Shown here: positions 6,754 through 38,216 of the stretch, piece after piece
Numbering within the stretch: position 1 is the stretch's first letter
How the letters are laid out: every line of letters begins with the position of its first letter
NCBI GenBank assembly: GCA_902796855.1
Contig: CADBQN010000053.1
Location: forward strand, 1-40,382
Direction of reading: 5' to 3'
Source: an uncultured Bacillota bacterium
Lineage (GTDB): Bacteria; Bacillota; Dehalobacteriia; UBA7702
DNA length: 40,382 bases
Program-made: the position numbers and the translations under genes
Notes under the pieces: model-generated
Databases searched by the model: none
Seen by the model: only the letters and a program-made list of their open reading frames with translations
Told to the model about the DNA's origin: nothing

Positions 6754-6802
6754 CGCTTTTCCTTTCAATGATAGTTGTTCAAATATGTGTGCTATATTTT
6801 AT

Positions 6803-6831
6803 ATTATCAAATATAAAAAACAATTCATCAA
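6803..6831 (-). promoter_or_regulatory. Sigma-70-type promoter for the Rhs gene
   Basis: On the minus strand, TTGATG (6831-6826) and GATAAT (6808-6803) are separated by exactly 17 bases in a very AT-rich stretch about 50 bases upstream of the Rhs start codon. The match is moderate, but position and spacing fit. The rest of the gap from here to 7035 shows no gene. Confidence 0.5.
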
Positions 6832-7035
6832 GAAGAAAAAATTGTGATGGTGTCAATATCTTTTTCATTATCAAATGTGCGTGTTTTTATCGTATTAAAT
6901 TGCTGTGTATCCCGTGTTTTTCCGCTGCCGCGGGATAACTGATTTTCTTCGGACACAAACCGCGCCGCGGGACAGTCCTGATTTTGTTTTTTTCAGAAAC
7001 GGATTGGCGGGCTCCCGTTTCCGTGCCGCTTCCCC

Positions 7036-7064
7036 TTGACATTCGCCGCTTCTTCTGCTAAGAT
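7036..7064 (+). promoter_or_regulatory. Sigma-70-type promoter of the cysE-cysS operon
   Basis: A perfect TTGACA box (7036-7041) and TAAGAT (7059-7064) are separated by 17 bases. The predicted start near 7071 lies directly before the T-box leader, so this promoter would make the leader RNA and the cysE-cysS-mrnC-rlmB transcript. Confidence 0.75.
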
Positions 7065-7082
7065 TATCATATTCATATGGTT

Positions 7083-7307
7083 GGCTATGATGGAGAAAGT
7101 AGCCGAATGTCCACGCCCCGCAGAGAGAGACCGCCGCCGGCTGCAAGCGGTTTCGGGATGGTTTCGGCGAAGTGCGCTCCGGAGCTTTCCGCCCGAACCT
7201 CAGTAGGGCGGAACGTCCCCTCCGCGTTAAGGAGATTTGAGCGCGCCTTCCGGCGCAATCAGAGTGGAACCGCGGTCTGCCCGTCTCTGAACGGCAGATC
7301 TTTTTTT
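7083..7307 (+). promoter_or_regulatory. Cysteine-specific T-box riboswitch leader
   Basis: The leader carries the T-box landmarks in order: the stem I base GATGGAGAAAGTAG (about 7089), the distal AGAGAGA element (about 7124) followed by GGCTGCAAGCGG, and a specifier region GAAG-TGC-GCTCCGGAGC with the Cys codon TGC at 7173-7175. A stem III-like part with AGTAGGGCGG (about 7202) and the T-box itself, AGAGTGGAACCGCGG at 7261-7275, come next, followed by a terminator. T-box leaders bind the matching tRNA; uncharged tRNA-Cys stabilises the antiterminator and allows transcription. A Cys specifier ahead of serine acetyltransferase and cysteinyl-tRNA synthetase makes the reading self-consistent. The exact 5' end and pairing were judged by eye. 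Confidence 0.88.
7275..7307 (+). terminator. Regulated intrinsic terminator of the T-box
   Basis: Stem TCTGCC-C-GT / ACGGCAGA, with one bulged C and loop CTCTGA, is followed by TCTTTTTTT. It lies directly after the T-box sequence, as expected for the terminator that competes with the antiterminator. Confidence 0.8.
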
Positions 7308-8043: not shown

Positions 8044-9472
8044 CACCCTGCGCGGTCAAAAGGAAGAATTCGTCCCCGTGGAAGAGGGAAAAGTCCGCAT
8101 GTACGTCTGCGGCCCGACGACGTATAACTACATCCACCTGGGCAACGCCCGGCCCATCGTGGCCTTTGACGTCATCCGCCGCTACTTTGCCTACCGCGGC
8201 TTTGACGTGACCTACATTCAGAATTTCACCGACGTGGACGACAAGATCATCAACCGCGCCAACGAAGAGGGCATGGACCCGAAAGACCTGGCTGATAAGT
8301 ACATCGCCGCCTATTTTGAGGACGCCGGCCGCCTCGGCGTACAGCCCGCCACCGTCCACCCCCGGGTCACCGAGCATATGGACGATATCATCGCCATGGT
8401 GCAAAAGATCATTGACAACGGCCTCGCCTACGAAGTCGACGGCGACGTTTATTACGAAGTACGCAAATTCCCGGACTACGGCAAGCTCTCCGGCCGCGAT
8501 CTCGACGAGATGCGCGCCGGCGCCCGCATCGCCGTGGGCGAGAAAAAGCGCGATCCCCTCGATTTCGCCCTCTGGAAAGCGGCGAAGCCCGGCGAACCCA
8601 GCTGGGACAGCCCCTGGGGCAAAGGCCGCCCCGGCTGGCACATTGAGTGCTCCACGATGTCCACGAAGTACCTCGGCAAGACCTTTGACATCCACGGCGG
8701 CGGCGCCGACCTGATCTTCCCCCATCACGAAAACGAGATTGCCCAGTCCGAAGGGTGCAACGGCTGCGAATCGGCCCGCTATTGGCTCCACAACGGCTTT
8801 ATCACCATCAACTCGGAAAAAATGTCAAAATCCCTCGGCAATTTCTTCCTGCTCCGGGATATTCTCGATAAATTCCCCGGCCCCGTCGTCCGCTTCTATC
8901 TGATGTCCACCCACTACCGCAGCCCCCTCGACTTTGACGACCAAAAGCTGGCCGCCGCGGAAAAATCCCTGCGCCGCATCGGCAACACCTACCGCACCGT
9001 TGAGGAAAAGATCGCCCTGATCGGCAGGAACGGCGGCAGCGACGGCGGCAAAAAGGAAAAGCTCATCGCCGTCTGCGAGGAAGCCCGGCGCAAGGTCATC
9101 GAGGCCATGGACGACGACTTCAACACCTCCCTCGCGTTGGCCGCCGTTTTCGACGTCTGCAAAGAGGTGAACACCCTCGTCAACGACCGCGGCTTCGGCG
9201 GCGACGCTGACACCGCCGCGGGGCTCCGCGCCGTGCTGGACTTCTTTGAGGAAATGAACACCATCTTTGACGTCATCGTTCCCGAGGAAGAGGAATCCGC
9301 CGCCGACGGTCTCGCCGAGGAGCTGATGGAGATCCTGCTGACCCTCCGTACCAACGCCCGGAAGAACAAAGACTGGGCCGCCGCCGATTTCATCCGCGAC
9401 GAACTGAAAAAGGTCGGCGTCGTCATTGAGGACACCCCCGACGGCCCCCGCTGGAAAAAGGAAGGCCGCTGA
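8024..9472 (+). CDS. cysS: Cysteinyl-tRNA synthetase
   Basis: A 482-residue class I aminoacyl-tRNA synthetase that charges tRNA-Cys. The HIGH-like signature is HLGN at residues 38-41, the zinc ligand Cys sits at 29 (MYVCGPT), and the KMSKS loop is at 266-270. The zinc-site segment WHIECSTMS and the [19 protein letters not shown] block are typical of CysRS. A helical anticodon-binding domain fills the C-terminal third. The ATG at 8024 lies inside the end of cysE behind AAAGGAG (8006-8012), and its TGA overlaps the next ATG as ATGA. The upstream Cys T-box makes its supply respond to uncharged tRNA-Cys. Confidence 0.96.
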
Positions 9473-9894
9473 TGACGAAAATGACCTGGTCCGAAGCATT
9501 GGGCCTGCCGGCGCTGACGCTGGCCTACATCGGCGACGGCGTCTATGAGCTCGGCGTCCGCCGCTATCTCCTCGAAGGCGGCCTGCGCCGCGCCGAGGAA
9601 ATGCACCGCGCCGCCGTGACCTGCGTCAAGGCGACGTTCCAGAGCCGCTTTTACCGTTACCTCGACGAAATCCTCCCCGAGGAGGAACGGGCGGTGATGA
9701 AGCGGGGCCGCAACGCCAAAACGGGGCACCAGCCCAAAAGCAGCGCCGCGGCGGAATATCACAACGCCACCGGCGTGGAAGCCCTTTTCGGCGCCGTCTG
9801 GCTTTCCGGGCGGGAAGAACGGCTGAACGAACTGTTCCGCGCCCTTTACGCCTTCATCGAGGCGGAACGGGAGGAAGGAAGGAAAGCGCAATGA
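9472..9894 (+). CDS. mrnC: Mini-ribonuclease III
   Basis: A 140-residue single RNase III catalytic domain without a double-stranded-RNA-binding domain. The motif LTLAYIGDGVYELGVRRYL near the N-terminus carries the conserved Asp and Glu of the family, and ALFGAVWLSGREERLNELF near the end is the second signature. In Bacillus subtilis Mini-III matures 23S rRNA ends; the same role is inferred here. It overlaps cysS and rlmB by four bases each (ATGA), so translation is coupled. The order cysS-mrnC-rlmB is the standard Firmicutes arrangement. Confidence 0.92.
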   Translation: MTKMTWSEALGLPALTLAYIGDGVYELGVRRYLLEGGLRRAEEMHRAAVTCVKATFQSRFYRYLDEILPEEERAVMKRGRNAKTGHQPKSSAAAEYHNATGVEALFGAVWLSGREERLNELFRALYAFIEAEREEGRKAQ

Positions 9895-10622
9895 AAGACC
9901 TGATTCCCGGGCGCAACGGCGTTGCCGAAGCGCTCCGTTCCGGCAGGGAGATCGTGAAAATCTACGTCGCCGAAGGCCGCGTCGAGGGCTCCCTCAAAGG
10001 GATCCTCGCCAGGGCGAAGGAACAGAACGTGCCGGTGCGGCGGCTGAAACGCTCCGCCCTGGACGACCTCTACCCCGGCAATCACCAGGGCGTTCTGGCG
10101 GAAATCGCCGCCTATGAGTATGCCGACATCGACGATATGCTGGCCGCCGCGGCGGAACGGGGCGAACCGCCCTTTCTGCTGATGCTTTCGGAGATCGAGA
10201 GCCCCCACAACCTCGGCGCCATCATGCGGACGGCGGAGACCGCCGGCGTCCACGGCGTGATCATCCCCAAGGACAACAGCGTCGGCCTCAACGCCACCGT
10301 GGCGAAGATCGCCTGCGGCGCCGCGGAATATCTCCCCGTGGCCCGCGTCACCAACCTCGTCCGCGCCGCGAAGGAGCTCCAGGAAAAGGGGCTTTGGGTC
10401 TACGGCGCCGATATGGACGGCACGCCCCTTTGGGAGCAGGATATGACCGGGCCGGTGCTGCTGATCGTCGGCGGTGAGGACCGGGGCATCCCCCGGCTTT
10501 TGAAGGAACAGTGCGATTTCACCGTGACCATCCCGATGCGGGGGCACATCTCCTCGCTGAACGCTTCCGTCGCCGCGGGGATCATGATGTACGAGATCGT
10601 TCACCAGAAGGGCCGAAAATAA
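9891..10622 (+). CDS. rlmB: 23S rRNA 2'-O-methyltransferase, SpoU/TrmH family (RlmB-like)
   Basis: A 243-residue SPOUT-family RNA ribose methyltransferase. The N-terminal substrate-binding domain (1-75) begins with PGRNGVAEALRS. The three SpoU motifs follow: SPHNLGAIMRTAE (about 104-116), LLIVGGEDRGIP (about 188-199) and IPMRGHISSLNASVAAGI (about 214-231), which build the trefoil-knot SAM site. RlmB methylates G2251 of 23S rRNA in E. coli; the exact target here is inferred from family and neighbourhood. The ATG overlaps the mrnC stop. No terminator is visible before the degV promoter. Confidence 0.92.
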   Translation: MKDLIPGRNGVAEALRSGREIVKIYVAEGRVEGSLKGILARAKEQNVPVRRLKRSALDDLYPGNHQGVLAEIAAYEYADIDDMLAAAAERGEPPFLLMLSEIESPHNLGAIMRTAETAGVHGVIIPKDNSVGLNATVAKIACGAAEYLPVARVTNLVRAAKELQEKGLWVYGADMDGTPLWEQDMTGPVLLIVGGEDRGIPRLLKEQCDFTVTIPMRGHISSLNASVAAGIMMYEIVHQKGRK

Positions 10623-10644
10623 ACGCCTGTTATCTCTTGAAAGG

Positions 10645-10710: not shown

Positions 10711-11589
10711 ATGAGCGGACTGTTTCGGGTCGCCACGGATTCCGGCTGTGACCTGCCGCTGACGCTCTGTGAGGAACGCGGCGTCCTGCCGCTCCAGCTC
10801 GTTTATGAAATGGACGGCGTTCAGCGCGTCGATACGATGGATCACGGTGACTGTCACCGGTTTTATGAGGAAATGCGGGCGGGGAAGGAGCCCCACACCA
10901 GCCAGGTCACGCCCCAGCAGTTCTATGATTTTTGGGAAGCGCGGCGGGTCGAGTCGGATCTGCCCCTCGTTCACATCGCCATGGGCAGCGGCATTTCCGG
11001 CACCTACGGCAACGGCGTCATCGCCCGGGAGCAGTTCCTCGCCGATCATCCCGGCGCCGAGATCTATCTCGTCGATTCCACCCTGGCCTCGGTGGGCTAC
11101 GGCATGCTGGCGCTGGACGCGGCGAGACTGCGGGACGAAGGAAAAACGGCGGCGGAGTGCGTCGCCCGGCTCGAGGCGCGCAAAGCCGCGGTCAACACGT
11201 ATTACACCACCGGCGATCTGACCTATCTCTACCGCAGCGGCCGGGTGAGCCGCACCGGCATGACCATCGCCCACGCCCTGAACATCTGGCCCATCCTCAA
11301 CCTCGATCTTGAGGGACACCTCATCGTTCAGGAAAAGGCCAGGGGCAAAAAGAAGACCATCGCCCGGATCCACCGCATCATCGGCGACCTCGTCACCGAA
11401 CCGTCGTCCCAGACGCTGTTCATCTGCCATTCGGACATCGCCGACGAGGCCAAGGCCTTCGGCGACGAGATCCGGGAAAAATTCGGTTTTAGAGACGTGT
11501 ATTATACCTACATCGGCTCCACCATCGGCGCCCACGCCGGTCCCGGCCTGATGGCCGCCTTTTTCTACGGCAAGCCCCGGACAATGTGA
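10711..11589 (+). CDS. DegV family protein (fatty-acid-binding)
   Basis: A 292-residue DegV/EDD-fold protein. The start is ATG at 10711 because AAAGGAG ends at 10702; the GTG at 10702 would overlap that site. Family landmarks are the N-terminal VATDSGCDLP, HTSQVTPQQFYDFW (about 57-70), GSGISGTYG (about 92-100), DSTLASVGYGML (about 120-131) and the YRSGRVSR segment. Members such as FakB bind a fatty acid for the kinase FakA, but many have unknown ligands and no fakA is nearby. It has its own promoter and a strong terminator. Confidence 0.9.
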   Translation: MSGLFRVATDSGCDLPLTLCEERGVLPLQLVYEMDGVQRVDTMDHGDCHRFYEEMRAGKEPHTSQVTPQQFYDFWEARRVESDLPLVHIAMGSGISGTYGNGVIAREQFLADHPGAEIYLVDSTLASVGYGMLALDAARLRDEGKTAAECVARLEARKAAVNTYYTTGDLTYLYRSGRVSRTGMTIAHALNIWPILNLDLEGHLIVQEKARGKKKTIARIHRIIGDLVTEPSSQTLFICHSDIADEAKAFGDEIREKFGFRDVYYTYIGSTIGAHAGPGLMAAFFYGKPRTM

Positions 11590-11610
11590 AAACGGAGTGA
11601 ACAAAAGACG

Positions 11611-11649
11611 TCATACTCATGCAAAAAAGCATGAGTATGATGTTTTTTT
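11611..11649 (+). terminator. Intrinsic terminator after degV
   Basis: A perfect 12-bp stem TCATACTCATGC / GCATGAGTATGA with loop AAAAAA is followed by TG and seven T. The core ATGC-A6-GCAT (11619-11632) resembles dyads ahead of other sigma-54 promoters in this window (see findings). Nothing that looks like a gene lies between here and 11830. Confidence 0.85.
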
Positions 11650-11830
11650 GCATTAATCGTGTTTTTATCGTGCGGAGCAGGGGTTTCCGAAGGAAACGGC
11701 TTAAGCGCCCCGGTTCCTTCGGCGCGGCAATGCGCTTTTGCATTTTTCCCGTCGGCGGCGGGACAGCGCCGTCCGCGCCGCTTTCGGCGCGGAGCAGGGG
11801 AAATGCTTTTTTTGCGCTCTTTTCTCTTTT

Positions 11831-11846
11831 TGGCACGGTTCTTGCT
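11831..11846 (+). promoter_or_regulatory. Sigma-54 (-24/-12) promoter
   Basis: TGGCACG-GTTC-TTGCT has the invariant GG (11832-11833) and GC (11844-11845) exactly ten bases apart, a textbook RpoN site. The predicted start near 11857 gives a 44-base leader before the methyltransferase gene at 11901. Confidence 0.9.
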
Positions 11847-11900
11847 TTATATAAAGGCAAAGAAACCGGTTGACGCGACCGAATTTTGAAAGGAGAAATT

Positions 11901-13319
11901 ATGAAATACGAATTTTTGAACAAAAGCGACCTCGAAGCCATCCATGAAGCGACGCTGGATATTCTGGAAACCATCGGCGTCCGCAGCGCCTCCCAGCGCT
12001 TCCTCGATAAATGCGCCGAATTGGGCCTGAACGTTAAAGACGGCACCGTCTATTTCCCCCGGGATATCGTCAATGAAGCCCTGAAAAAAGCCCCGTCCCA
12101 GTTCACCCTTTACAGCAGAGACGGCAAACACGACGCCGAACTCGGCGCCGAAGGCAAAGTCTATTCCCAGACCTGCATCGGCTCGCCCTTCATCAACGAC
12201 ATTGAAACCGGCAAGAGAAAACTCGTGACCTACGAAGAACTGGAAAATCACGTCCGCGTCTGCGACGCCCTCGACAACATCGACATCATTTCCGCCATCT
12301 TCCCGAAGGACGTTCCGGAACATGCCGCGGTGACCTACGAAACCGCCGCTCAGGTCAAGAACACCACGAAACCGCTGCATATCTGCATTGAATCCGACCA
12401 CGAAATGAAATACATCCCCGGCGTCCTCGCCGGCGCCGTCGGCGGCATGGACAAATTGGTGGAAAAACCCATCGCCTACCTCCAGGTCTCGCCCATCAGC
12501 CCCCTGGACTACGCCGTGGGCCCCGCCAACGGCCTGCTGGATACCGTTGAAGCCAACCTGCCTTTGGGCATCATCCCCTGCCCGATGATGGGCGCGACGG
12601 GCCCGATGACGATGATCGGCTCCGTGGCGATGCACAACGCCGAAATGGTTGCCGGCGTCGTCGTCGCTCAGCTGATGCGTCCCGGTCTCCCCTGCGTGAT
12701 GAGCCCCCGTGTCACCTTCATCGACATGCGCACCGCCGTGGGCCTCTGGGCCGCGCCGGAAATGGGCATGGCCGGTCACTGCTCGATGCAGATGGCCAAC
12801 TACTACGGCATCCCCAATGAACCCACCGGTTTCTCCTGCTCCTCCAAGATCTGCGACGAACAGGCCGGGTTCGAAAGAATGTACAACGCCCTGATTCCCG
12901 CCATCGGCGGCGCTTCCATCGTCGGCACCGCCTGCTCCGGCGACAACGCCCTCATCGCCGACTACGCCACCACCGTCATGGACGACGAAATCAGCTCCAT
13001 CATCAAACATACCGTTAAAGGCAAAGTCGTCAACACCGATACGCTGGCGGTGGAAGCCATCCGCGAAGTCGTCAACGGCGAACGGAACTTCCTCGGCAAC
13101 GAACACACCTTCCGTTATCTCCGCAGCGAGCTCTGGGAACCGATCCTCTGCGAACGCGCCACCTACGAAGCCTGGGACAGCAACGGCCGTGTGACCTATG
13201 GTGAAAAAGCCCTGGCCAAAGCGAAAGATCTCTATTACAACTACAAGAGCGAACCCCTCAGCGACGAATGCGCCGCCGCCGTGGACGCCGCGGTGAAAGC
13301 CGCCGTTGACAAAGCGTAA
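11901..13319 (+). CDS. MttB-superfamily corrinoid methyltransferase lacking pyrrolysine (first)
   Basis: A 472-residue homolog of trimethylamine methyltransferase MttB without an in-frame amber codon. The start is ATG 11901, preceded by AAAGGAG. Family hallmarks: HEATLDILETIGVR near the N-terminus, the barrel segment MMGATGPMTMIGSVAMHNAE (two families of MttB share ATGPMT/THNAE-like strands), and PEMGMAGHCSMQMANYYGIP. In an ungapped comparison with the Pyl motif GG-Pyl-ADSK of the two mttB genes here, this protein reads GF-S-CSSK, so Ser312 takes the Pyl position. Non-Pyl members such as MtgB demethylate glycine betaine, and others act on proline betaine, carnitine or butyrobetaine; the substrate here is unknown. 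It is a single-gene unit with its own sigma-54 promoter and terminator and has no adjacent corrinoid protein. Confidence 0.9.
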   Translation: MKYEFLNKSDLEAIHEATLDILETIGVRSASQRFLDKCAELGLNVKDGTVYFPRDIVNEALKKAPSQFTLYSRDGKHDAELGAEGKVYSQTCIGSPFINDIETGKRKLVTYEELENHVRVCDALDNIDIISAIFPKDVPEHAAVTYETAAQVKNTTKPLHICIESDHEMKYIPGVLAGAVGGMDKLVEKPIAYLQVSPISPLDYAVGPANGLLDTVEANLPLGIIPCPMMGATGPMTMIGSVAMHNAEMVAGVVVAQLMRPGLPCVMSPRVTFIDMRTAVGLWAAPEMGMAGHCSMQMANYYGIPNEPTGFSCSSKICDEQAGFERMYNALIPAIGGASIVGTACSGDNALIADYATTVMDDEISSIIKHTVKGKVVNTDTLAVEAIREVVNGERNFLGNEHTFRYLRSELWEPILCERATYEAWDSNGRVTYGEKALAKAKDLYYNYKSEPLSDECAAAVDAAVKAAVDKA

Positions 13320-13451: not shown

Positions 13452-13543
13452 GTAATGAAAAAAGGAATTATTTCCCTTTGAGTGAAGCGCGATTCTTTCG
13501 GCGATCGCGCGGGCTTGCCTGTTCTGAGAGGGGGTGCGGGCTT

Positions 13544-15313
13544 TTGGAAACCGCGATGAATACGAGGAATTTTGCGTTCTGCCCGGCAGATCACGCGCTG
13601 ACCGCCAAGGAGATCGCCGCCGCCGGCGTTCATTATTTTCTGACCCGGGAAGACGGGACGTTCCATCTTTATGACACCACGGATCTTTACCGCATTTTGC
13701 TGGAAGAGGGAAAGACCTCCGTCTTTTTGCGGGATATCCCGGATCGGCCCTTCCGCGTGGTCCGGGCGGGGGCGCCCTTTGAGTCCCTGGGCGTTATGTC
13801 CGAGGGCACTTTTCACGTTCTCCTCGTGGATGAGGACGGCGACGTCCAGGCCGTTCACGAGGTGACGGAGGGCCTGAGCCGCGTGATCTGGGACGCCCGC
13901 TATCAGATCGACAATCTGCGGCGCTGGGTCGACAACACCCGGCGCATCCTCGACGTGATGGAAGATGATATTTTCGTTACCGATGAGTACGGCTTCATTC
14001 AGTATTTCAACCCCCGCAGCGAATTCCTGATGGGCATTAAAAACGCAGATTACGCCGGTCATCACATCAGCGAGCTCGTCAAGGAAGATATTTTGCCCAA
14101 AAGTCTGACCATGGCGGTTCTCGACAGCGGCCAGCCGGTAAAGGAGATCATGGATCTGCCGAAGGGCATCCGCATCATCAACAGCGCCCAGCCGATCTAC
14201 GACGACGACGGCAAAATCGTTCAGGTCCTGTCCACCTCCAAGCACATCGACGAGATCACCGACAAAATCGACGAGCTCTCCGCAAAGCTCCGTTCCAGCG
14301 ACGAGCAGATCAAGTATCTGCAGGAACAGGTCATCGGCAAAAAGCAATATATCTTTGAGAGCGCGCCGATGAAAGAGGTGCAGAAAAAGCTGATGCGCAT
14401 CGCCCCCACCGACGTGACCGTCCTCATCGAGGGCGAGAGCGGCGTCGGCAAGGAAGTCGTCGCCGACACGATCTTCCAGCTCAGCACCAGGAAGGATAAA
14501 CCCTTTGTCAAGATCAACTGCGGCCTCATCCCCAAAGACCTGATGGAATCGGAGCTCTTTGGCTACGAGGCCGGGGCTTTTACCGGGGCGCTGAAGGACG
14601 GCAAGATCGGCAAAATCGAAATCGCCGACAAAGGCACCGTCTTTTTGGACGAGATCGGGGAACTGCCCCTGCCCCTTCAGGTGAAGCTGCTGGAATTCCT
14701 CCAGGACCGCAAGATCACCCGGGTCGGCGGCACCAAGCGCATCGCCGTGGATATCCGCGTCATCGCCGCCACCAACCGCGACCTCTTCGCCATGGTGGAG
14801 GAGGGGACGTTCCGCCGCGACCTCTATTACCGCCTCAACGTGATGCCCATCTACATTCCGCCCCTCAGGGAGCGGGAAGGCGATATCGTGCCGCTGCTGT
14901 TCCTCTTCCTCAACATGTTCAACAAAAAATACGGATTTGACCGCCACATGGACAACAACGTGGTGGAAAAGATGCGCGGTTACAGCTGGCCTGGGAACGT
15001 CCGTGAGCTGATGCATACCGTGGAGCGCATCGTCGTGTCCAGCGATTCCGATTACATCGACAGTATTCTGCTGGACGAGCTCTTTACCGAGGGAATGACC
15101 GTTCACGGCTCCGCCATCACGGCCAACGCCAAGGTCATCTGCACCGAGCTGATGCCCCTGAAAACGGCCAAGCACGAGCTGGAAGAGTATTTGGTGAAAA
15201 TGGCCTATGACCGCTTCGGTTCCTCCTACAAGGCCGCCGAGTTCCTTCAGGTCAACCAGTCGACGGTGAGCCGCTGGCTGAAAAGGGCCGGGGAGCGGAA
15301 ACGGAAGACCTGA
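13544..15313 (+). CDS. Sigma-54-dependent transcriptional activator 1 (PAS, AAA+, HTH)
   Basis: An enhancer-binding protein of about 589 residues. Domains: an unrecognised N-terminal domain (1-120), a PAS-like domain (about 125-240, with DDIFVTDEYGFIQYFNP), a coiled linker, the AAA+ domain with Walker A GESGVGKE at 297-304, the sigma-54 loop GAFTGA at 344-349 and Walker B VFLDEIGE, and a Fis-type HTH at the C-terminus (YKAAEFLQVNQSTVSRWLKR). There is no receiver domain, so the signal is likely a ligand or redox state sensed by the N-terminal or PAS domain. Three starts are possible: TTG 13478 behind AAAAGGAA, TTG 13544 behind AGGGGGTG (chosen), or ATG 13556 with a weak site. It lies between two sigma-54 promoters, which makes it the obvious activator of the flanking methyltransferase units. 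Confidence 0.9.
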   Translation: METAMNTRNFAFCPADHALTAKEIAAAGVHYFLTREDGTFHLYDTTDLYRILLEEGKTSVFLRDIPDRPFRVVRAGAPFESLGVMSEGTFHVLLVDEDGDVQAVHEVTEGLSRVIWDARYQIDNLRRWVDNTRRILDVMEDDIFVTDEYGFIQYFNPRSEFLMGIKNADYAGHHISELVKEDILPKSLTMAVLDSGQPVKEIMDLPKGIRIINSAQPIYDDDGKIVQVLSTSKHIDEITDKIDELSAKLRSSDEQIKYLQEQVIGKKQYIFESAPMKEVQKKLMRIAPTDVTVLIEGESGVGKEVVADTIFQLSTRKDKPFVKINCGLIPKDLMESELFGYEAGAFTGALKDGKIGKIEIADKGTVFLDEIGELPLPLQVKLLEFLQDRKITRVGGTKRIAVDIRVIAATNRDLFAMVEEGTFRRDLYYRLNVMPIYIPPLREREGDIVPLLFLFLNMFNKKYGFDRHMDNNVVEKMRGYSWPGNVRELMHTVERIVVSSDSDYIDSILLDELFTEGMTVHGSAITANAKVICTELMPLKTAKHELEEYLVKMAYDRFGSSYKAAEFLQVNQSTVSRWLKRAGERKRKT

Positions 15314-15660: not shown

Positions 15661-15676
15661 TGGCACGGTTTTTGCA
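15661..15676 (+). promoter_or_regulatory. Sigma-54 (-24/-12) promoter of the mttB1 operon
   Basis: TGGCACG-GTTT-TTGCA has GG at 15662-15663 and GC at 15674-15675 with ten bases between. The predicted start near 15687 gives a leader of about 33 bases before mttB1. Confidence 0.92.
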
Positions 15677-15719
15677 AATATAGATAGGTAAGACTGAAAT
15701 CAACAAGGAGGTTTTCTTT

Positions 15720-17189
15720 ATGAAGAGAAATACTCAAGCCGTTTTTAACGGTTTAAGCAGCTTCGGCATCGTTGGCTACTCCGAAGATGAACTGCAGACC
15801 ATTCATCTGGCCACCCTTGATATTCTGAAGAACGTCGGCGTCCGCGTCGACAGCAAAGAAGCCCGGGATATCTTTGGCTCCGGCGGCTGCGACGTCGATG
15901 AAACGACCCACATCGTGAAGATCCCTTCCTATATCGTGGAAGACGCCATCCGCACGGCTCCCCCTACCATCCAGCTGTGCGGCCGCACCCCGGACAAAGA
16001 CTATATCGTTGAAAAGAACCGCGTCGGTTTCGTCAACTTCGGCGAAGGCGTTATGATCCGCGACCCGGAAACGAAGGAATACCGCCCCAGCACCAAAGCT
16101 GACCTGGCAAAATGCAGCCGCATGAGCGACTATCTCTCCAACATGGACATCACCTACCGCGCCGTCGTCTCCCAGGATCATCCCGGCCCCTCCCAGGCGC
16201 TCCACAACGCCGAGGCGATCTTCCCCAACACGACGAAGCACTTCTTCATCGGCCCCGACGGAGCGGAAAACGCCGAATATCTGCTGCGCATGGCCGCCGC
16301 CGTTGTCGGCGGCAGGGAAAAACTGCGCCAGCGGCCGCTGATCTCCTTTAACGTCTGCCCCACCAGTTTGCTGAAACTGATTCCCGAATGCACCGACGTC
16401 GTAATCCTCGCCGCCAAGAACGGCGTGCCCGTCAACATCATCTCCATGGCCATGGCCGGAGCGACGTCCCCGGTGACCCTCGGCGGCACCCTTGTGACCC
16501 ACAACGCCGAAGTCCTCTCCGTCGTCGTCCTGAGCCAGCTGGTGCAGAAGGGCTCTCCCTGCATCTACGCCAGCTCCACGACGATCATGGATATGCGCTA
16601 TACCACCGCCCCCGTCGGCGCGCCGGAACTCGGCATGATCTCCGCTTCCGTCGCCCGGCTGGCCCAGTTCTACAACCTGCCCAGCTTCGTCGCGGGTGGG
16701 TAGGCGGACAGCAAGATCCCCGATGGCCAGGCCGCGCATGAAAAGACCCTCACCGCTTTATTGGCCGCCCAGGGCGGCGCCAATCTGATCTACGGCGCGG
16801 GCATGCTGGACCTCGGCATTACCTTTGACTTCGCTCAGTTCGTCATCGACAACGAAATCTATACGATGATCCGCAAGGTCATCGACGGCATCAAAATCAC
16901 CGACGAGGCCCTCGCCGTCGATCTCATCAAAGAAGTCGGCCCCGGCGGCGAATTGGTCAGCCATCCCCACACCTTCGCCAACTTCCGCGCCGAACAGAGC
17001 GCCACGTCGCTCTTTGACCGCTCCATGCGCGAAGCCTGGATCGCCGAAGGCTGCAAAGACCTGGCCGAACGGGCTTACGCCAAAGCCGACGACATCCTCC
17101 GCACCCATCAGGTGCCGGCCCTCGCCGACGGCGTGGAAAACGAAATCCACGATATCCTGCTGGAAGCCGAGGAAAAATACGGGATGTAA
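15720..17189 (+). CDS. mttB: Trimethylamine:corrinoid methyltransferase, pyrrolysine-containing (first copy)
   Basis: The gene is read as one 489-residue protein with an in-frame TAG at 16701-16703 decoded as pyrrolysine (residue 328). The sequence around it, PSFVAGG-Pyl-ADSKIPDGQAAHEKT, matches the known archaeal MttB active-site region, and homology continues without a shift on both sides: SMAMAGATSPVTLGGTLVTHNAEVL before, GANLIYGAGMLDLGITFDFAQ after. MttB transfers a methyl group from trimethylamine to a cognate corrinoid protein, leaving dimethylamine; Pyl positions the amine for attack. AAGGAGG precedes the ATG by 8 bases. The real stop is TAA. It is followed by TauE-like and BCCT genes, probably in one operon under the sigma-54 promoter. 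A naive annotation would split it at 16703. Confidence 0.95.
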
Positions 17190-17357: not shown

Positions 17358-18296
17358 ATGTTAGGTACCATTCTGCTTCGCCTCGTCGTCATCGGCGCCG
17401 GCGTCAACGCGGTTTCCTGGTGCATTGTCTTCTACCGGAAGCTGTTCAAAAACCGTTCCCTTATGCTGCAGAACCCGAACTACCAAGGGAAGGGCGCGCT
17501 GCTCACGACGATCCAGGGAATCATCATCGGCGTGACGATGTTCTTCGATACCCTGGGCATCGGCGGCAACGCGCCTCAGACAGCGCTGTTTAAAATGACC
17601 AAAGCCGTGCCGGACCGTCTGATCCCCGGCACCCTGAATACCTGCACCCTGGTAGGGAGCGCCACGGAAACGATGCTCTTTGTCTCCATGGTCAGCGTCG
17701 ACCCGCTGACGCTGGTCTGCTTCATCGGCGCCGTCACCATCGGCGCCCGCATCGGCGCGAAATACGTTTCCCACTTCCCGCTGAAACCGATCCGCATCAT
17801 CCTCGGCTTCGGCCTCATCGTCGTCGCCGGCACGATGATCCTGCGCCAGTTCGGCCTCTGGGTCCCCGGCGGTCTGGAAATCGGGATCTATGGCTGGAAG
17901 CTCATCGTCGCCACGATCCTCGCCTTCATCGTCGGCCTGCTGGCCGCCGCCGGTATCGGCGGTTACGCCTTCATGATCGCCATCTGCTACGGCCTCGGGA
18001 TGGATCCCCGCTCGGCGTTCCCGATCATGTTCGGCTCTTACACGTTCCTGATGCTCGCTTCGGGGCTGCGCTTCCTCAAGGAAGACGCCCTCGACTACCG
18101 TGCCAACGCCATCGGCGTTATCACCGGCACCGTCGGTGTATTGCTGGCCTTCTTTATTGTTAAATCGATGCCGCTTGAAATCCTCTTCTGGCTCGTCATC
18201 GCCATTGTTCTCTACACCGCCATCATGATGCTGATCGCCGGTTTCCGCAAACCGAAACCGGAAGAAGAAGCGGTGGAAGTCCAAGCGGCGGAATAA
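17358..18296 (+). CDS. TauE/SafE-family permease
   Basis: A 312-residue protein with about eight hydrophobic membrane segments. The N-terminal half contains GALLTTIQGIIIGVTMFFDTLGIGGNAPQTALF, and the second half has a related segment with IVGLLAAAGIGGYAFMIAICYGLG, the internal duplication typical of the TauE/SafE (DUF81) family. Members move small anions or organic acids such as sulfite, sulfoacetate or other C1-C3 compounds; the cargo here is unknown. The ATG follows GAGAGGAAGGGG. It sits between mttB1 and a BCCT transporter, so a role in uptake or export of a methylated substrate or product is inferred. Its gaps to both neighbours (168 and 123 bases) hold GC-rich hairpin-forming sequence without a clear U-tract. 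Confidence 0.8.
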   Translation: MLGTILLRLVVIGAGVNAVSWCIVFYRKLFKNRSLMLQNPNYQGKGALLTTIQGIIIGVTMFFDTLGIGGNAPQTALFKMTKAVPDRLIPGTLNTCTLVGSATETMLFVSMVSVDPLTLVCFIGAVTIGARIGAKYVSHFPLKPIRIILGFGLIVVAGTMILRQFGLWVPGGLEIGIYGWKLIVATILAFIVGLLAAAGIGGYAFMIAICYGLGMDPRSAFPIMFGSYTFLMLASGLRFLKEDALDYRANAIGVITGTVGVLLAFFIVKSMPLEILFWLVIAIVLYTAIMMLIAGFRKPKPEEEAVEVQAAE

Positions 18297-18419
18297 AACT
18301 CTGTTTCCTGTTTCCGGTAAAGAAATCAAACATTCAAAAAACCGCCGCCGGTTCACGCCGCCGCCGCCCTTTCCCCGCGGCGACGGCGAACCCCCGGCGG
18401 CAGAAAAGAGATGATCGTT

Positions 18420-20132
18420 ATGACAACGGAAACAAAAAAATATAAAATGGATTACGTCGCCATCGCCGTCAGCGTGGCCATTCTGGCCGTCCTCGTTTTC
18501 CTCACGATTTGGGATTCTCAGGGCGTCGTCACCGGCCTGCTTTCGGTGCGGGATGTCCTGATCTATAATTTTGGCGTTTATTTTATTGTTTTTACCGCGG
18601 CGATCCTATTTTATAACATCTATCTCGCCGCTTCCAAATACGGCAACATCCGCATGGGCCGTACAAAACCGGAATACGGCACTTTCGGCTGGGTCGCCAT
18701 GATCTTCTGCGCGGCCATGGGCTGCACGATTCTGTTCTGGTCCGCCATCGAGTGGGCCTATTACACCGTCTGGCTGAATCCCTTCGGCATGACACCGGAG
18801 GAAACGGCGAAGATCTCCGTGGCCTATTCCTTCTTCCACTGGGGGTTCCCGGCCTGGTCGATCTACGCCGCCGGCGTGATCCCCATCGCTTATCGCTACT
18901 ATGTCCGCAGAAAACCCGGCCTGACGCTGCAGAACGCCTGCGAAGGCGTGCTGGGAAAGAGTGTGTACGGGCCCTTGGGCACCGTCATCAGCATCATCTT
19001 CGTTTTCGGTGTCCTCGGCGGCTACGCCATCTCTTACGGCAGCGGTATCCCGATGCTGAACAACATCGTTCACAATCTCGTCGGCACGCCGGAGAACCTG
19101 CTGGTGGATTTCCTCATCATCATCGCCGTGACGGCGCTGTTCATGTGGAGCGCCTGCTCCGGTATTGCCCGCGGGATCCAGGTGCTTTCCAAGCTCTGTG
19201 TCTGGCTCTGCTTTGTGATCTGCGGCGCGTTCCTGATCCTCGGCCACACCGGCTTTGAGATCAACAACACGGTCCAGTCCTTCGGCTGGATGCTCTCGAA
19301 CTTCTTTGACATGCTCTGCTACACCGACCCCACCGGGGCTTCCGGCGGGTTCCCTCAGGAATGGACGGTCTTTTACTGGGCCTGGTGGCTGGGTCTGGCG
19401 CCGGTGATGTGGATTTTCATCGCCAAGTGCTCCGCCGGCCGCTCCATCCGCAGCATCATCCTGACGGTGATCTTCTCCGGCATGGCCTCGACGGTGCTCT
19501 TCTTCGGCACCATTTCCAACCACGGCCTCGGCGAGATCCTGCTGAACGCCGGTTTCGACTGGTCGAACCTCGGCGGCAACGGCACGATGCTGGATACGTT
19601 CTACAATGAGTTCAACGAGTTCGGCCTCATCTCCGCCGTCATTCAGACGCTGCCTTTGGGCAAGTGCGTGCTGGCGATCTGGTTCGTCACCGCTTTCTTC
19701 CTCTTTGTGACGACGATGGACTCGGCCTCCTATACGATGGCGGCCTCCTGTACGAAGGGGCTGGCCGTCGGCGACGACCCCTCCCGCCGCTACCGCGTGC
19801 TCTTCGCGTTTCTGCTGTCGGTGACGCCGCTCTGCCTGTTGGTGGCGAGCTCCCCGCTGACGGGGTTCAAGGCGGTGCTGATCATCACTTCGGTGCCGAT
19901 CTCGCTGCTGATCATCTTCTGCCTCATCTCCTGCCAGAAATGGCTCCGGGAAGATTACGGCTCCTGGACGGCGGAGGACATCAAACGGTTTTACGCCGTC
20001 TATGAGGACAGCCTGAGCCTGCCCGACGACGCCTCTCCCGCCGGTGTTGAGACGCCGCTCTACTCCACCGTGGCCGGCCTGAGAAAACGGGTGGTGAAAA
20101 AGGCGGAAGGAACGGAAGAAACGGAAGAATAA
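18420..20132 (+). CDS. BCCT family betaine/choline/carnitine-type transporter (first copy)
   Basis: A roughly 570-residue protein with twelve predicted membrane helices. The BCCT signature is clear in WTVFYWAWWLGLAPVMWIFIAK, whose Trp cluster forms the quaternary-ammonium binding site, and the N-terminal SKYGNIRMGRTKPEYGTF block is conserved. BCCT carriers import glycine betaine, choline, carnitine or similar trimethylated compounds. The start at 18420 is chosen because AAAAGAG ends at 18410; an ATG at 18411 is also possible. It is the last gene of the mttB1 unit, before a terminator at 20209. The C-terminal ~40 residues are polar and acidic. The substrate is inferred to be a methylated amine or betaine. 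Confidence 0.92.
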   Translation: MTTETKKYKMDYVAIAVSVAILAVLVFLTIWDSQGVVTGLLSVRDVLIYNFGVYFIVFTAAILFYNIYLAASKYGNIRMGRTKPEYGTFGWVAMIFCAAMGCTILFWSAIEWAYYTVWLNPFGMTPEETAKISVAYSFFHWGFPAWSIYAAGVIPIAYRYYVRRKPGLTLQNACEGVLGKSVYGPLGTVISIIFVFGVLGGYAISYGSGIPMLNNIVHNLVGTPENLLVDFLIIIAVTALFMWSACSGIARGIQVLSKLCVWLCFVICGAFLILGHTGFEINNTVQSFGWMLSNFFDMLCYTDPTGASGGFPQEWTVFYWAWWLGLAPVMWIFIAKCSAGRSIRSIILTVIFSGMASTVLFFGTISNHGLGEILLNAGFDWSNLGGNGTMLDTFYNEFNEFGLISAVIQTLPLGKCVLAIWFVTAFFLFVTTMDSASYTMAASCTKGLAVGDDPSRRYRVLFAFLLSVTPLCLLVASSPLTGFKAVLIITSVPISLLIIFCLISCQKWLREDYGSWTAEDIKRFYAVYEDSLSLPDDASPAGVETPLYSTVAGLRKRVVKKAEGTEETEE

Positions 20133-20579: not shown

Positions 20580-20595
20580 TGGCGCGTTTTTTGCA
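20580..20595 (+). promoter_or_regulatory. Sigma-54 (-24/-12) promoter of activator 2
   Basis: TGGCGCG-TTTT-TTGCA has GG at 20581-20582 and GC at 20593-20594, ten bases apart; it differs from the other three sites by one base in the -24 box. The predicted start near 20606 leaves a leader of about 74 bases. It implies that activator 2 is itself under sigma-54 control, by activator 1 or by itself. Confidence 0.8.
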
Positions 20596-20679: not shown

Positions 20680-22497
20680 ATGAAAATCGGTGAATTAAAT
20701 TGCTGGAGCTGCACTTGGTTTGAGAATGATCGACTCGTTACCGTAGATGATTACGTTGAGAATAAGACCAGCTTCTTTGTTTTCGGGAAAGGCGCCTCCT
20801 GCCAGTATCTTCTCGTTACGAGGGGTGATGTGGGAGATGTCCTGCTGCGGGAAAAACTGGATTCCTTTGATCCTTACGAGCACCTCGTATCCCGCGACTT
20901 TATTCCGCTGAATGTCAACGATGATATGTTTTCCATCCCCTATATCGGCAAGCAGGAAAAATACGGTCTTCTTTTTGACGGTGACCATCGTCCCTGCGGC
21001 GTCATCATGGATATTCAGAATATCTATTCCCTGCATTATAATCTGCAGATGGGCATTTACCGCAGGGACCTGGCGATTGGGTTCTACAAACGCATCATCG
21101 ACAATATGGAAGAGGAGATCTTTATCGTCGACGAGTATGGTTTTGTTCAGTTCCTGAATCCCTACGCGGAAAAAGTCTGCGACGTCAAACTCCGCGACGT
21201 CATCGGGCTGCACGTGGATGATCTCGAAAAAAAGGGGATCATTTCTTCCAGCATTTCCAAAGAGGTTTTCCGTTACGGTCATACCTGCAACCGCATGATG
21301 GAACTGAAAACAGGGAAAACCGTCCTGGCGACGGGAATTCCCATTTATGATGACGGCGGTACCCTCATCAATGTCCTCGCGACCTCGAAAAATCTGGAAC
21401 AGATGCGCAATGTGCTGTCGCATTTGAGTGAAATCACCAGTGAGCTCGGGGAAAAGGAAAAGGAAATCACGCAGCTGCGTCACCGCATCATCACCAATGA
21501 GGATTACGTCATTGAAAGTCCGGCGATGCGCGAAGCGGAGCGGGATATTGAAAAAGTCGCGCCGACCGACGCCACCGTGCTGATTTACGGCGAAAGCGGC
21601 GTCGGCAAAGAGGTCGCGGCGGATCTGATTTATAAGCTCAGCGCCCGCCGGGAGAACCCGATGGTGAAAATCAACTGCGCGATGATCCCGGAACATCTGT
21701 TGGAATCGGAATTCTTTGGCTATGAGCCCGGCGCTTTTACCGGCGCCAGCCGCAGCGGCAAAAAGGGGAAGATCGAAATGGCCAACGGCGGCACCCTTTT
21801 CCTCGATGAGATCGGTGAAATGCCCCTGGCCCTGCAGGCCAAGATTTTAGAGGTGCTGCAGGATCGGGAGATCGTCCGCGTCGGCGGTATGAAACGGATC
21901 CCTGTGGATGTGCGCTTCATCGCCGCGACGAACAGGGACCTTAAAGCCATGGTGCGGGAGGGGACGTTCCGCAAGGATCTCTACTACCGGCTGAACGTGA
22001 TGACCGTTTATCTCGCCCCGCTGAATCAGCGAAAAGAAGATATCCTGCCGTTATGCGACTTATTCCTGAAAAAATACAACTCCAGATATAAGAAGAACCA
22101 TATTTTCGCCCCGTCGGTGCTCAGCTTCTTTTTGAAATACGATTGGCCCGGCAATGTCCGGGAACTGATGCACACCATTGAGCATCTCGTCATTGTCAGC
22201 GATAACGACGTGATTTCCGTTGAGGACGTCAACCGTGTCCTGGAAGAGCGTACCCCGGGAAAGCGGGAGGAAACAGCGACGGAAATGCAGGTCACTTCCT
22301 TGAAACTGGCCAAGCGGGAGCTGGAAATCTCCCTCGTAAAGCGCGCTTACGATCTGTTCCATTCTTCCTATAAAGTCGCGGAAATGCTCGGCATTTCTCA
22401 GGCCGCGGTGATGAAGATTTTAAAGCGCAACGGTTATCGCATTAAAAACGGCGTTTTGAGTAAAATTGAGGATACGGAAAATGAGGTGATCGGATGA
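20680..22497 (+). CDS. Sigma-54-dependent transcriptional activator 2 (PAS, AAA+, HTH)
   Basis: A 605-residue paralog of activator 1 with the same layout: an N-terminal domain of unknown fold (1-130, with paired Cys in LNCWSCTW), PAS-like domain (about 139-250, EEIFIVDEYGFVQFLNP), AAA+ domain with Walker A GESGVGKE at 304-311, GAFTGA at 351-356 and Walker B LFLDEIGE, then a Fis-type HTH (YKVAEMLGISQAAVMKILKR). The ATG follows AAGGAG. It has no receiver domain. The HTH differs from that of activator 1, so the two may recognise different sites. The gene stands directly upstream of the second methyltransferase operon and overlaps the next gene by four bases, so it is translated together with that small membrane protein. 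Confidence 0.93.
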   Translation: MKIGELNCWSCTWFENDRLVTVDDYVENKTSFFVFGKGASCQYLLVTRGDVGDVLLREKLDSFDPYEHLVSRDFIPLNVNDDMFSIPYIGKQEKYGLLFDGDHRPCGVIMDIQNIYSLHYNLQMGIYRRDLAIGFYKRIIDNMEEEIFIVDEYGFVQFLNPYAEKVCDVKLRDVIGLHVDDLEKKGIISSSISKEVFRYGHTCNRMMELKTGKTVLATGIPIYDDGGTLINVLATSKNLEQMRNVLSHLSEITSELGEKEKEITQLRHRIITNEDYVIESPAMREAERDIEKVAPTDATVLIYGESGVGKEVAADLIYKLSARRENPMVKINCAMIPEHLLESEFFGYEPGAFTGASRSGKKGKIEMANGGTLFLDEIGEMPLALQAKILEVLQDREIVRVGGMKRIPVDVRFIAATNRDLKAMVREGTFRKDLYYRLNVMTVYLAPLNQRKEDILPLCDLFLKKYNSRYKKNHIFAPSVLSFFLKYDWPGNVRELMHTIEHLVIVSDNDVISVEDVNRVLEERTPGKREETATEMQVTSLKLAKRELEISLVKRAYDLFHSSYKVAEMLGISQAAVMKILKRNGYRIKNGVLSKIEDTENEVIG

Positions 22498-23436: not shown

Positions 23437-24891
23437 ATGAGAGACACCATGAGATTACATTACGCCTCGGAAGAAGACGTAAAGAAGATGCACGAAGCGA
23501 CCCTGGATATTCTGGAAGAAACCGGGATCAAAAGCTTCTCCGAACCCTTCGTCGCCTTTTGTAAGGAAGCCGGTCTGAACGTCAGCGACGATCCTTCCGG
23601 CAAGGGCAGCCGCATCCGCTTCCCCAGAGATATCGTTGAAAAAGCCATCAAGACCGCTCCCAAAAGCTTCACCATGTATGGCCTCGACGATAAATATCAG
23701 ATCAAATGGGGCGAAAAGAACGCGTATAACCACACCTGTGTCGGCACGCCCTTCGTCACCGATGTTGAAACCGGCAAAAGAAGAAACACCTCCCTCGCCG
23801 ACCTGGAAGATTATATCCGCCTGGCCGACGCTCTCCCCAACACCGATATCATTTCCTGCCTGACGGCCCAGGGGATTCCCGAACACGCCGCCAACGCCGT
23901 TCAGGTCGCCGCGATGGTGAAAAACACCACGAAACCGCTGCGTATCTGCATCCATGACGCTCAGGAAACCGAAGACGTCGTCAACGTCCTCGCCGCCGCC
24001 GTCGGCAGCAAGGAAGAGCTTGTGAAAAAGCCCATCGCCTATCTGGAAGTTTCCCCCATCAGCCCGATGGAATACGCCTCGGATCCCGCCGACGCCATTT
24101 TGAGCATTGTTGACGCCGGTATGCCCTTCGGCAACATTCCCTGCCCGATGATCGGCGCCACCGGCCCGATGACCGTCGTCGGTTCCGTCGTGATGCACAA
24201 CGCCGAAGTCCTCGCCGGCATCGTCATCGCCCAGCTGAGAAAACCGGGTCATCCCTGCATCATGAGCCCCCGCGTCACCTTCATGGAAATGTCCACCGCC
24301 ATGGGCCTCTGGGCCGCTCCGGAAATGGGCCTCGCCGCCACCCTCAGCGCCGAACTGATGCGCTACTACGATCTGCCCTGCACCGTAACGGGGTTCAGCT
24401 GCGGTTCCAAAGTCTCCGACGCTCAGGCCGCCTTTGAATCCATGTTCAACACCCTGATCCCGGCTCTCGTCGGCGTCGATGTCGTCGGCGCTTCCGGCTC
24501 CCTCGACAACGTTCTGGAAGCCTCCTACGAAAAACTCGTCATCGACAACGAAATCGCTTCCCTGATCCAGCACGCCATCAAAGGCTATGACGTCAACGAA
24601 GACACCTGCGCGACCTCGGTCGTCAAAGATGTTGTGGACGATCCCGCTTTCGGCGGCAACTTCCTCGGTCATCCCCATACGATGCAGCATCTCCGCACCG
24701 AACTTTGGAAGGGCTACGTCACCGACCGCGCCATCTATGAAAACTGGCAGGCCGCCGGCGCCAAGACCTTCACCGAAAGAGCTCACGACCTCGTGGTCGA
24801 TGTCCTCGCCAACCATCATCCCCAGCCGATTTCCGACGACAAAGTCAAAGCGGTTGAAGCGGTGGTCCAGGCCTGCATCGACAGAAAATAA
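23437..24891 (+). CDS. MttB-superfamily corrinoid methyltransferase lacking pyrrolysine (second)
   Basis: A 484-residue close paralog of the protein at 11901-13319; they share blocks such as MHEATLDILEETGIK / IHEATLDILETIGVR, PVSPISP-type strands and TCVGTPFVTDVETGKRR / TCIGSPFINDIETGKRK. The ATG follows AAGGAGG. The Pyl position reads GF-S-CGSK (Ser321), and no amber codon is present. Such non-Pyl MttB relatives demethylate quaternary amines such as glycine betaine in other anaerobes; the substrate here is not predictable. It is the first gene of an operon that continues with mttB2, mtbB, mtbC and two transporters, so it may feed the same corrinoid protein. Confidence 0.92.
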   Translation: MRDTMRLHYASEEDVKKMHEATLDILEETGIKSFSEPFVAFCKEAGLNVSDDPSGKGSRIRFPRDIVEKAIKTAPKSFTMYGLDDKYQIKWGEKNAYNHTCVGTPFVTDVETGKRRNTSLADLEDYIRLADALPNTDIISCLTAQGIPEHAANAVQVAAMVKNTTKPLRICIHDAQETEDVVNVLAAAVGSKEELVKKPIAYLEVSPISPMEYASDPADAILSIVDAGMPFGNIPCPMIGATGPMTVVGSVVMHNAEVLAGIVIAQLRKPGHPCIMSPRVTFMEMSTAMGLWAAPEMGLAATLSAELMRYYDLPCTVTGFSCGSKVSDAQAAFESMFNTLIPALVGVDVVGASGSLDNVLEASYEKLVIDNEIASLIQHAIKGYDVNEDTCATSVVKDVVDDPAFGGNFLGHPHTMQHLRTELWKGYVTDRAIYENWQAAGAKTFTERAHDLVVDVLANHHPQPISDDKVKAVEAVVQACIDRK

Positions 24892-25004: not shown

Positions 25005-26477
25005 ATGGTTAAGAATGCCCATGCCGGTATCGGCCTGTTGTCCGGTTTCGGCGTCAACATGTTCACGGAAGATGAATTATACACCATGCATATGGCTACC
25101 CTCGAGATCCTGAGAGATGTCGGGATCGGCATCACCGATCCCGAAGCCCAGGAAACCCTGGCCGCCGTCGGCTGTATCGTCGATAAGAAGAACGGCGTTG
25201 TCCATTTCCCCAACTACGTTGTGGAAGACGCCATCCGTCTCGCCCCGAAAACCGTCACCTTCGCCGGCAGAAACCCCGCGAAGAGCTATGTCCTGGAAGA
25301 CAACCGCACCGGTTTTACCAACTTTGGCGAAGGGATCATGGTCTATGACCTCTACACCAACGAATACCGCCGCTCCACCAAGAAGGACTGCGGGCAGGCC
25401 GCGCTGATGGCCGACGCCCTCTCCGCTATTGATATTCATGAAAGAGCCGTCTCCGCCCAGGATGTTCCCGCCGCGGTGGCCCCTCTCCATGAGGTCCAGG
25501 TCAATATCACCAATACTTCCAAACACCTCGTCCAGGGATGCGGCACCGTCAGTAACCTGCGCAAAATTTACAAAGTGATGTGCCACATCGCCGGCGGTGA
25601 GGAAGCCTATCGGGCGAACCCCATCTACAGCACCATCACCTGCCCGATCAGTCCTTTGCAGCTCGTTCCCGAAAGCACGGCGATGATCATGGAAAGCGCC
25701 CGCCTCGGCGTGCCCATCACCATCATTTCCATGGCGCTGGCCGGCGGTACCACCCCGGTGACCCTCGCCGGGACGCTGCTGACCCACAACTGCGAAGCCC
25801 TCGCTTCCGTCGTCCTCTCCCAGGCCACGGTCAAAGGCGCGCCGGTGATCTACGGCAGCTCTACCTCGATCATGGACCTGAAATATACCTGCTCCCCGGT
25901 GGGCTGCCCCGAACTGGGCATGATCAACGCCGGCGTCGCCAAGCTGGCGCAGTTCTACGGCATCCCCAGCTGGGTCGCGGGCGGGTAGGCTGACAGCAAA
26001 GTTCCCGACGGTCAGGCGGCCCACGAAAAGACCATTACCGCGATGCTCCCGGCCTTGGCAGGCGCCAATGTCATTTACGGTCTCGGTATGCTGGAACTGG
26101 GTATCACCTTCGACTTTGCTCAGCTCGTCATCGACAACGAAATCGCCGAAATGATCAAACACGTGGTCAGAGGTATTGACGTGAATGATTATACCATGGC
26201 GGTGGATGTCATTAAGGAAGTCGGCATCGGCGGCGAATTCGTCACCAACATGCACACCTTTGAAAACTTCAAGAAAGTTCAGACTGATCCCAAGATCTTT
26301 GACCGCCGCATGAGAGAAGGCTGGGAAGCCCTCGGCAGCAAAGACGTTCTGGAAAGAGCCAGAGAAGAAGCGAAGAATATTCTTGAAAACCACAAACCCG
26401 ATCCGCTTCCCGCCGGAACGGAAAAAATGCTCGAAGATATGGTCGCCGAAGGCGAAGAAGAACTTGGCTTAAGGTAA
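25005..26477 (+). CDS. mttB: Trimethylamine:corrinoid methyltransferase, pyrrolysine-containing (second copy)
   Basis: A 490-residue MttB with an in-frame TAG at 25986-25988 read as pyrrolysine (residue 328). The flanks PSWVAGG-Pyl-ADSKVPDGQAAHEKT and the following GANVIYGLGMLELGITFDFAQLVIDNE match archaeal MttB, and there is no frame change at the amber codon. The upstream half has SMALAGGTTPVTLAGTLLTHNCEAL and PVGCPELGMINAGVAKLAQFYGIP. The enzyme methylates a corrinoid protein with trimethylamine. AAAGGAG precedes the ATG. The true stop is TAA. It sits between a non-Pyl paralog and mtbB in the same direction. The two mttB copies differ through most of their length, so they are not a recent duplication and may differ in substrate or partner. 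Confidence 0.95.
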
Positions 26478-28789: not shown

Positions 28790-28903
28790 GTTGGTTGAGA
28801 TAGTATGTAAAACAATAAAAATATACAGAGCAGTTATTCTTATTTGACTTTATTTGTTTTACGGCGTTTGTCCTTAACTAAAAAAAGAAGGAGGGAAAAA
28901 AGA

Positions 28904-38215: not shown

Positions 38216-38216
38216 T

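Follow-up and report, generated by a model that had tools for sequence, protein, structure and literature searches.

An in-frame TAG codon in mttB1, a gene in the DNA of an uncultured Bacillota bacterium, is almost certainly read as pyrrolysine (Pyl). We are highly confident that the gene yields a full-length, Pyl-dependent trimethylamine (TMA):corrinoid methyltransferase through decoding of its UAG by tRNAPyl(CUA), although both the decoding step and the presence of Pyl in the protein are deduced from the genome. This reading of the amber codon, which an earlier note on the DNA had proposed, is supported by conserved coding sequence downstream of the TAG and by a complete set of pyl genes. 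Pyl-containing MttB proteins, the accompanying pyl cluster and the misannotation of such genes are already established in Methanosarcina, Acetohalobium, Bilophila and Ca. Formimonas warabiya (PMC7593587, PMC6778437, PMC9768040, PMC9842639), and what is new here is a member in an uncultured relative.

The mttB1 gene and its in-frame TAG

The mttB1 gene spans positions 15720 to 17189 on the plus strand of the 40,382-nucleotide stretch of DNA that was analysed (hereafter the window), and encodes 489 residues if the TAG is read through. A ribosome-binding site (AAGGAGG, 15705-15711, plus strand) can be read from the sequence ahead of the ATG at 15720. This start codon places the TAG at 16701-16703 in frame as codon 328, within the local context LPSFVAGG-TAG-ADSKIPDG, which confirms the earlier note's placement of residue 328 in PSFVAGG-Pyl-ADSK. 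The same note had counted 162 codons to the TAA; this figure holds if the terminator is included, but only 161 sense codons precede the TAA at 17187-17189. Its expectation that a standard annotation would report two fragments was borne out as well, since ORF calling yields one piece at 15720-16703 and another at 16761-17189.

The name MttB is well founded, as evident by the score of the read-through protein against the TIGR02369 equivalog (698 bits versus a curated cut-off of 525). The best matches among solved structures are those of Methanosarcina barkeri MttB, 7xcm (406 bits) and 7xcl (403 bits, residues 2-482). In the alignment with 7xcl, the modelled Pyl334, printed as X, lies opposite codon 328 of mttB1, precisely where the earlier note had located the archaeal Pyl, and an Rfam PYLIS_3 match begins at this codon. 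The residues named as forming the M. barkeri active site, Gly110, Met249 and Tyr364 (PMC9842639), correspond to Gly108, Met243 and Tyr358 of MttB1. An AlphaFold2 model in which Pyl was entered as Lys (mean pLDDT 85.8) has the MttB TIM-barrel fold, and its best PDB match is again 7xcl (TM 0.94). The barrel of the M. barkeri enzyme comprises residues 82-395, with Pyl at position 334 (PMC9842639). Therefore, a product ending at residue 327 of MttB1 could not complete the TIM barrel.

The codons past the TAG are coding and under strong purifying selection. Comparison with an orthologue from the same genus (93% identical, locus L110) gives a dN/dS of 0.036 upstream of the TAG (codons 50-327) and 0.060 across the 161 codons downstream, at a dS of about 1 to 1.1. 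All nine of the closest orthologues keep a TAG at codon 328, and in each of the nine sequences the other two downstream frames meet a stop 1 to 40 codons on. On a wider scale, the TAG occupies a single alignment column in 59 Pyl-MttBs, and in full-length MttB members recovered by an unbiased six-frame search the internal stop is always TAG and never TAA or TGA. The homology past residue 327 that the earlier note described in the same frame is thus conserved coding sequence.

The same pattern recurs throughout the genome, which measures 2.11 Mb and is 98.4% complete. It carries 18 MttB-superfamily genes, ten of which have one internal TAG, in every case at the Pyl column and within the motif P-S-x(4)-[G/T]-TAG-x-D-[S/A]-K. 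All six mtbB genes also have one TAG, and the single MtmB-family gene has none. This is a large number of TAG-bearing methylamine genes for a genome of 2.1 Mb. An in-frame TGA flagged in a RACo gene on contig C44 was rejected, as it is the normal end of that gene.

The pyl genes and competing readings of the TAG

All of the pyl genes that the earlier note tied to its reading (pylT, pylS and pylBCD) are present, and the protein scores are above curated cut-offs. They lie on contig C5 (locus L016), separate from the mttB1 contig, in the order pylSc (5259-6170), pylD (6259-7071), tRNAPyl(CUA) (8254-8326), pylB (8398-9468), pylC (9465-10634) and pylSn (11547-11924). Curated profiles identify the protein genes, with PylS split in two (TIGR02367, 320 bits; TIGR03912, 131 bits) and PylB, PylC and PylD scoring 458, 371 and 205 bits. 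The tRNA gene (pylT), called by ARAGORN with a CTA anticodon, specifies a 6-bp anticodon stem and a 3-nucleotide variable loop, with CCA encoded. A gene for a methyltetrahydrofolate (methylTHF):corrinoid methyltransferase (10718-11530, above the curated cut-off) is located inside the cluster.

Across 61 related genomes, TAG-containing mttB genes are found only where pyl genes occur. They are present in nine genomes, including this one; PylC is encoded in all nine of these and PylS in eight. The only MttB-bearing genome without the TAG lacks PylC. The ninth genome, a fragmented assembly, looked like a case of TAG-mttB without PylS, but its pylC resides on another contig and its pylS probably went unassembled.

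Several other readings of these data were considered. A genuine stop, a pseudogene or a sequencing error, any of which would end MttB1 at residue 327, matches what standard annotation would give. This is exceedingly improbable given that the TAG is kept in nine of nine orthologues with selection acting on the codons beyond it, that independent assemblies from many genomes agree on the TAG, and that truncation would break the barrel. We regard it as just as implausible that another tRNA suppresses the UAG and inserts Gln, Lys, Tyr or a similar amino acid at residue 328, as we found nothing in support of this idea. Among the 39 other places in the genome identified by the Rfam tRNA model, ARAGORN assigns no CUA anticodon besides that of pylT; the complete pyl set and the identity of position 328 with Pyl334 of M. 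barkeri also speak against it. A less extreme alternative is that MttB1 does contain Pyl, but that its natural substrate is not TMA, or not only TMA, with the ten Pyl-MttB paralogues dividing substrates among them. In its favor, the other nine Pyl-MttBs are merely 38-52% identical to mttB1, the transporters near mttB1 are of the betaine/carnitine/choline (BCCT) type rather than for TMA, and there is no mttC directly beside mttB1. We nevertheless consider this alternative unlikely, because MttB1 is far above the equivalog cut-off for TMA methyltransferases and keeps the Gly, Met and Tyr of the M. barkeri TMA site. MttB1 most likely transfers methyl groups from TMA to a corrinoid protein; family membership is the basis for its predicted TMA specificity, and the number of paralogues suggests some divergence.

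A related question is how the UAG of mttB1 would be distinguished from a stop. One proposal is that recoding occurs only through a cis-acting PYLIS RNA structure, in the manner of SECIS elements for selenocysteine. Rfam PYLIS_3 (RF02510) indeed matches 16701-16800 at 83 bits (threshold 38) as well as 25986-26085, PYLIS_2 matches at mtbB, and the use of UAG to end ordinary genes in this genome means that some discrimination or tolerance is needed. However, the 100 nucleotides after the TAG fold no better than shuffled sequences (z of +1.2, +0.9 and +0.9), no consensus base pairs are present among 28 homologues, and conservation at the protein level can account for the Rfam match. Likewise, a published analysis detected no shared structure for mttB and reported PYLIS as not essential (PMC3639795). 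We therefore rejected PYLIS as a structured element, treating it as a sequence match only, and judge recoding that depends on it to be very unlikely.

A census of stops guided by codon usage over 208 kb found 170 ORFs, 21 of which end in TAG; once Pyl sites are removed, eight ordinary-looking TAG terminators remain. Even among Pyl-mttB genes, eight of 59 also end in TAG, including one in this genome on contig C51 (these genes are at L017, 14170-15760, and at L027, L032, L046, L069, L077, L098 and L107). UAG is thus ambiguous in this genome, and the simplest account is that termination competes with general suppression, with C-terminal extensions being tolerated. A share of the mttB1 product may end at residue 327. 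In L107, the reading frame continues beyond the terminal TAG into the next mttB gene, such that read-through would fuse two enzymes. A candidate for a new Pyl protein in L019 (9208-11196, minus strand), where a TAG is followed by 286 open codons, was rejected because it consists of a glycosyltransferase gene ending in TAG and a separate in-frame LysM gene. This arrangement predicts some fused product in a cell that uses Pyl.

The methylamine island and its predicted regulation

The mttB1 gene is part of an island whose products appear to import and demethylate quaternary amines and methylamines under regulatory control. All of its genes discussed here are on the plus strand. Upstream of mttB1 are a non-Pyl MttB-superfamily methyltransferase with Ser at the Pyl column (11901-13319; PF06253 and alignment) and a PAS/sigma-54-interaction (enhancer-binding) regulator (13478-15313; PF00158, 234 bits; PF00989). 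The next gene after mttB1 encodes a TauE/SafE-family membrane protein (17358-18296; PF01925), followed by a BCCT transporter (18411-20132; PF02028, 383 bits), a second PAS/sigma-54-interaction regulator (20680-22497; PF00158, 235 bits) and another Ser-type, non-Pyl methyltransferase (23437-24891; PF06253 and alignment). Further along are the second Pyl-MttB of the window (25005-26477; TIGR02369, 685 bits), with its Pyl TAG at 25986-25988, and mtbB (26602-27987), which encodes a Pyl-containing dimethylamine (DMA) methyltransferase with its Pyl TAG at 27649-27651, as identified by TIGR02368 (487 bits, cut-off 369), the PYLIS_2 match and translation. A methylamine-type corrinoid protein resembling MttC and MtbC (28082-28729) has B12-binding domains and scores 207 bits against TIGR02370, just under the cut-off of 215; it is the likely methyl acceptor. 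A second BCCT transporter (28844-30580; PF02028, 347 bits) comes next.

Three MttB genes in the window are preceded by exact sigma-54-type -24/-12 promoters (TGGCACGNNNNTTGCW). The site at 15661-15676 (plus strand), which reads TGGCACGGTTTTTGCA, is 59 bp upstream of the mttB1 start, and those at 11831 and 23328 precede the two Ser-type genes. A site with one mismatch is found at 20580, upstream of the second regulator. Overall, the window contains five sites with one mismatch or fewer versus 1.18 expected, and none of 100 shuffles reaches five. The genome carries rpoN, and similar sites on contigs C36, C22, C17 and C51 lie a short distance upstream of MttB genes or of other island ORFs. Listed by locus, the sites outside the window are on the minus strand at L023 (10091), L024 (7366), L026 (4600) and L017 (18935), and a search for one serving the pyl cluster gave no match in L016. 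Together, the promoters and adjoining enhancer-binding regulators look like an RpoN regulon that controls methylamine methyltransferase genes. A limited literature search for papers linking 'pyrrolysine' with 'sigma-54' found none, which is weak evidence that this promoter link is unreported.

From these components, a route for methyl transfer can be proposed. RpoN and the regulator encoded at 13478-15313, the likely activator of the mttB1 promoter, would probably switch on transcription. The split PylSn/PylSc synthetase would charge tRNAPyl(CUA) with pyrrolysine produced by PylB, PylC and PylD, and the UAG would probably be decoded by general suppression in competition with termination, with no structured RNA to steer it. 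In the resulting enzyme, the pyrroline ring is expected to lie above the active site of the TIM barrel, together with Gly108, Met243 and Tyr358, and to bind TMA. By analogy with the solved MttB-MttC structure, the methyl group would then be presented to a corrinoid protein such as that encoded at 28082-28729. MttB1 would in this way convert TMA to DMA, and MtbB would convert DMA to monomethylamine (MMA) in the same manner. Because the genome lacks a Pyl-MtmB, the pathway may stop at MMA. A RACo-type activator would keep the corrinoid protein reduced, and the methyl groups would probably pass to tetrahydrofolate via a methylTHF:corrinoid methyltransferase like that encoded in the pyl cluster. 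Genes for the activator and the corrinoid protein are present in several copies, the genome having three RACo-type activators and nine genes for corrinoid proteins, with a further one that is broken.

With the TAG read correctly, 16 seemingly broken genes become methyltransferase genes, ten for trimethylamine and six for dimethylamine, a TMA-consuming capacity that would otherwise escape standard annotation pipelines. 'RUG' is the usual label of rumen metagenome-assembled genomes (MAGs). The orthologue-bearing contig of the same-genus genome G001 matches a contig of MAG RUG11176, and the genus is therefore likely to originate from the rumen. This Firmicutes lineage would then join the potential consumers of TMA in the gut, beside methanogens, Bilophila and a few other bacterial genera.

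Other features of the window include a T-box leader (7078-7291), probably responsive to cysteine, upstream of genes for the serine acetyltransferase CysE and cysteinyl-tRNA synthetase. The minus strand at 187-6768 encodes a protein of 2193 residues that has RHS repeats together with a CBM96 carbohydrate-binding module. Type II-A CRISPR-Cas genes occupy 34103-40073 and encode Cas9 (1370 amino acids), Cas1, Csn2 and probably Cas2 (39085-39405).

Related systems and probable replacement of pyrrolysine

The closest known system is that of Ca. F. warabiya DCMF, a member of the same bacterial class whose orthologues are 69-71% identical to mttB1 with TAG at the same codon, and which has a complete pyl cluster with split pylS, as in this genome. 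In that organism, 23 Pyl methyltransferases have been reported and seven Pyl-MttBs detected by metaproteomics (PMC6778437, PMC9768040). It was enriched from contaminated groundwater and carries 82 mttB genes in 6.4 Mb (6,441,270 bp), whereas this 2.1-Mb genome, probably from the rumen, has 18 mttB and six mtbB genes. M. barkeri MttB (7xcl, 7xcm and 7xcn; PMC9842639) shares the aligned Pyl, the fold and the active-site Gly, Met and Tyr, but it is archaeal, about 43% identical to MttB1, delivers methyl groups to coenzyme M and depends on a single-chain PylS. The gut bacterium Bilophila wadsworthia (PMC7593587) resembles this genome in having TAG in mttB, split pylS away from mttB, BCCT transporters and a non-Pyl MtmB-like gene, yet it lacks mtbB, of which there are six Pyl-type genes here. 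More distant are the MtgB-type members of the superfamily (2qne, 9yce), which share the fold (TM about 0.9) but are without Pyl and merely 28% identical to MttB1. The two Ser-type MttBs of the window group with non-Pyl members in the tree and mttB1 does not.

In a tree of 84 MttBs, all 58 Pyl forms fall into one well-supported group (SH-aLRT 96) that also holds seven members with a sense codon at the Pyl column. These encode Leu (L081_281 and L086), Ile, Ile, Val and Gln (L098_2446, at 2446-4147 on the minus strand; L074_3947, at 3947-5444; L093; and L095) or, on a long branch, Trp (TGG; L096). A tree in which the Pyl forms are held together is rejected on a reduced set without long branches (AU p 0.0002), a value that is optimistic, since the first tree had already been seen when the group was chosen and the search behind it was a quick one. 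The nested sense-codon members occur in lineages that have pyl genes, and the Leu copy of Ca. F. warabiya stands in tandem with a Pyl copy (L081, 281-1916 and 1941-3435; G010:C1:5753705 and 5755212). Sense replacement in some close paralogues of relatives means that certain enzymes of the clade can do without Pyl. We interpret the pattern as repeated Pyl loss among paralogues, possibly along with a change of substrate.

On balance, we lean toward the view that the Pyl-MttB clade of Dehalobacterium, Ca. Formimonas, this genus and their relatives is a site of active genetic-code evolution. Within the TMA-methyltransferase clade, Pyl would have given way to Leu, to Ile, Val or Gln, and to Trp on at least two and probably three independent occasions in relatives that keep the pyl genes, while UAG still ends ordinary genes and some Pyl-mttB genes, so that one mRNA can carry UAG both as Pyl and as stop. 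With Pyl and non-Pyl enzymes available as matched pairs, the lineage also lends itself to studying which functions require Pyl. In Ca. F. warabiya, pylC is present as two full copies and one remnant (G010:C1:6240424, 6280709 and 1661652).
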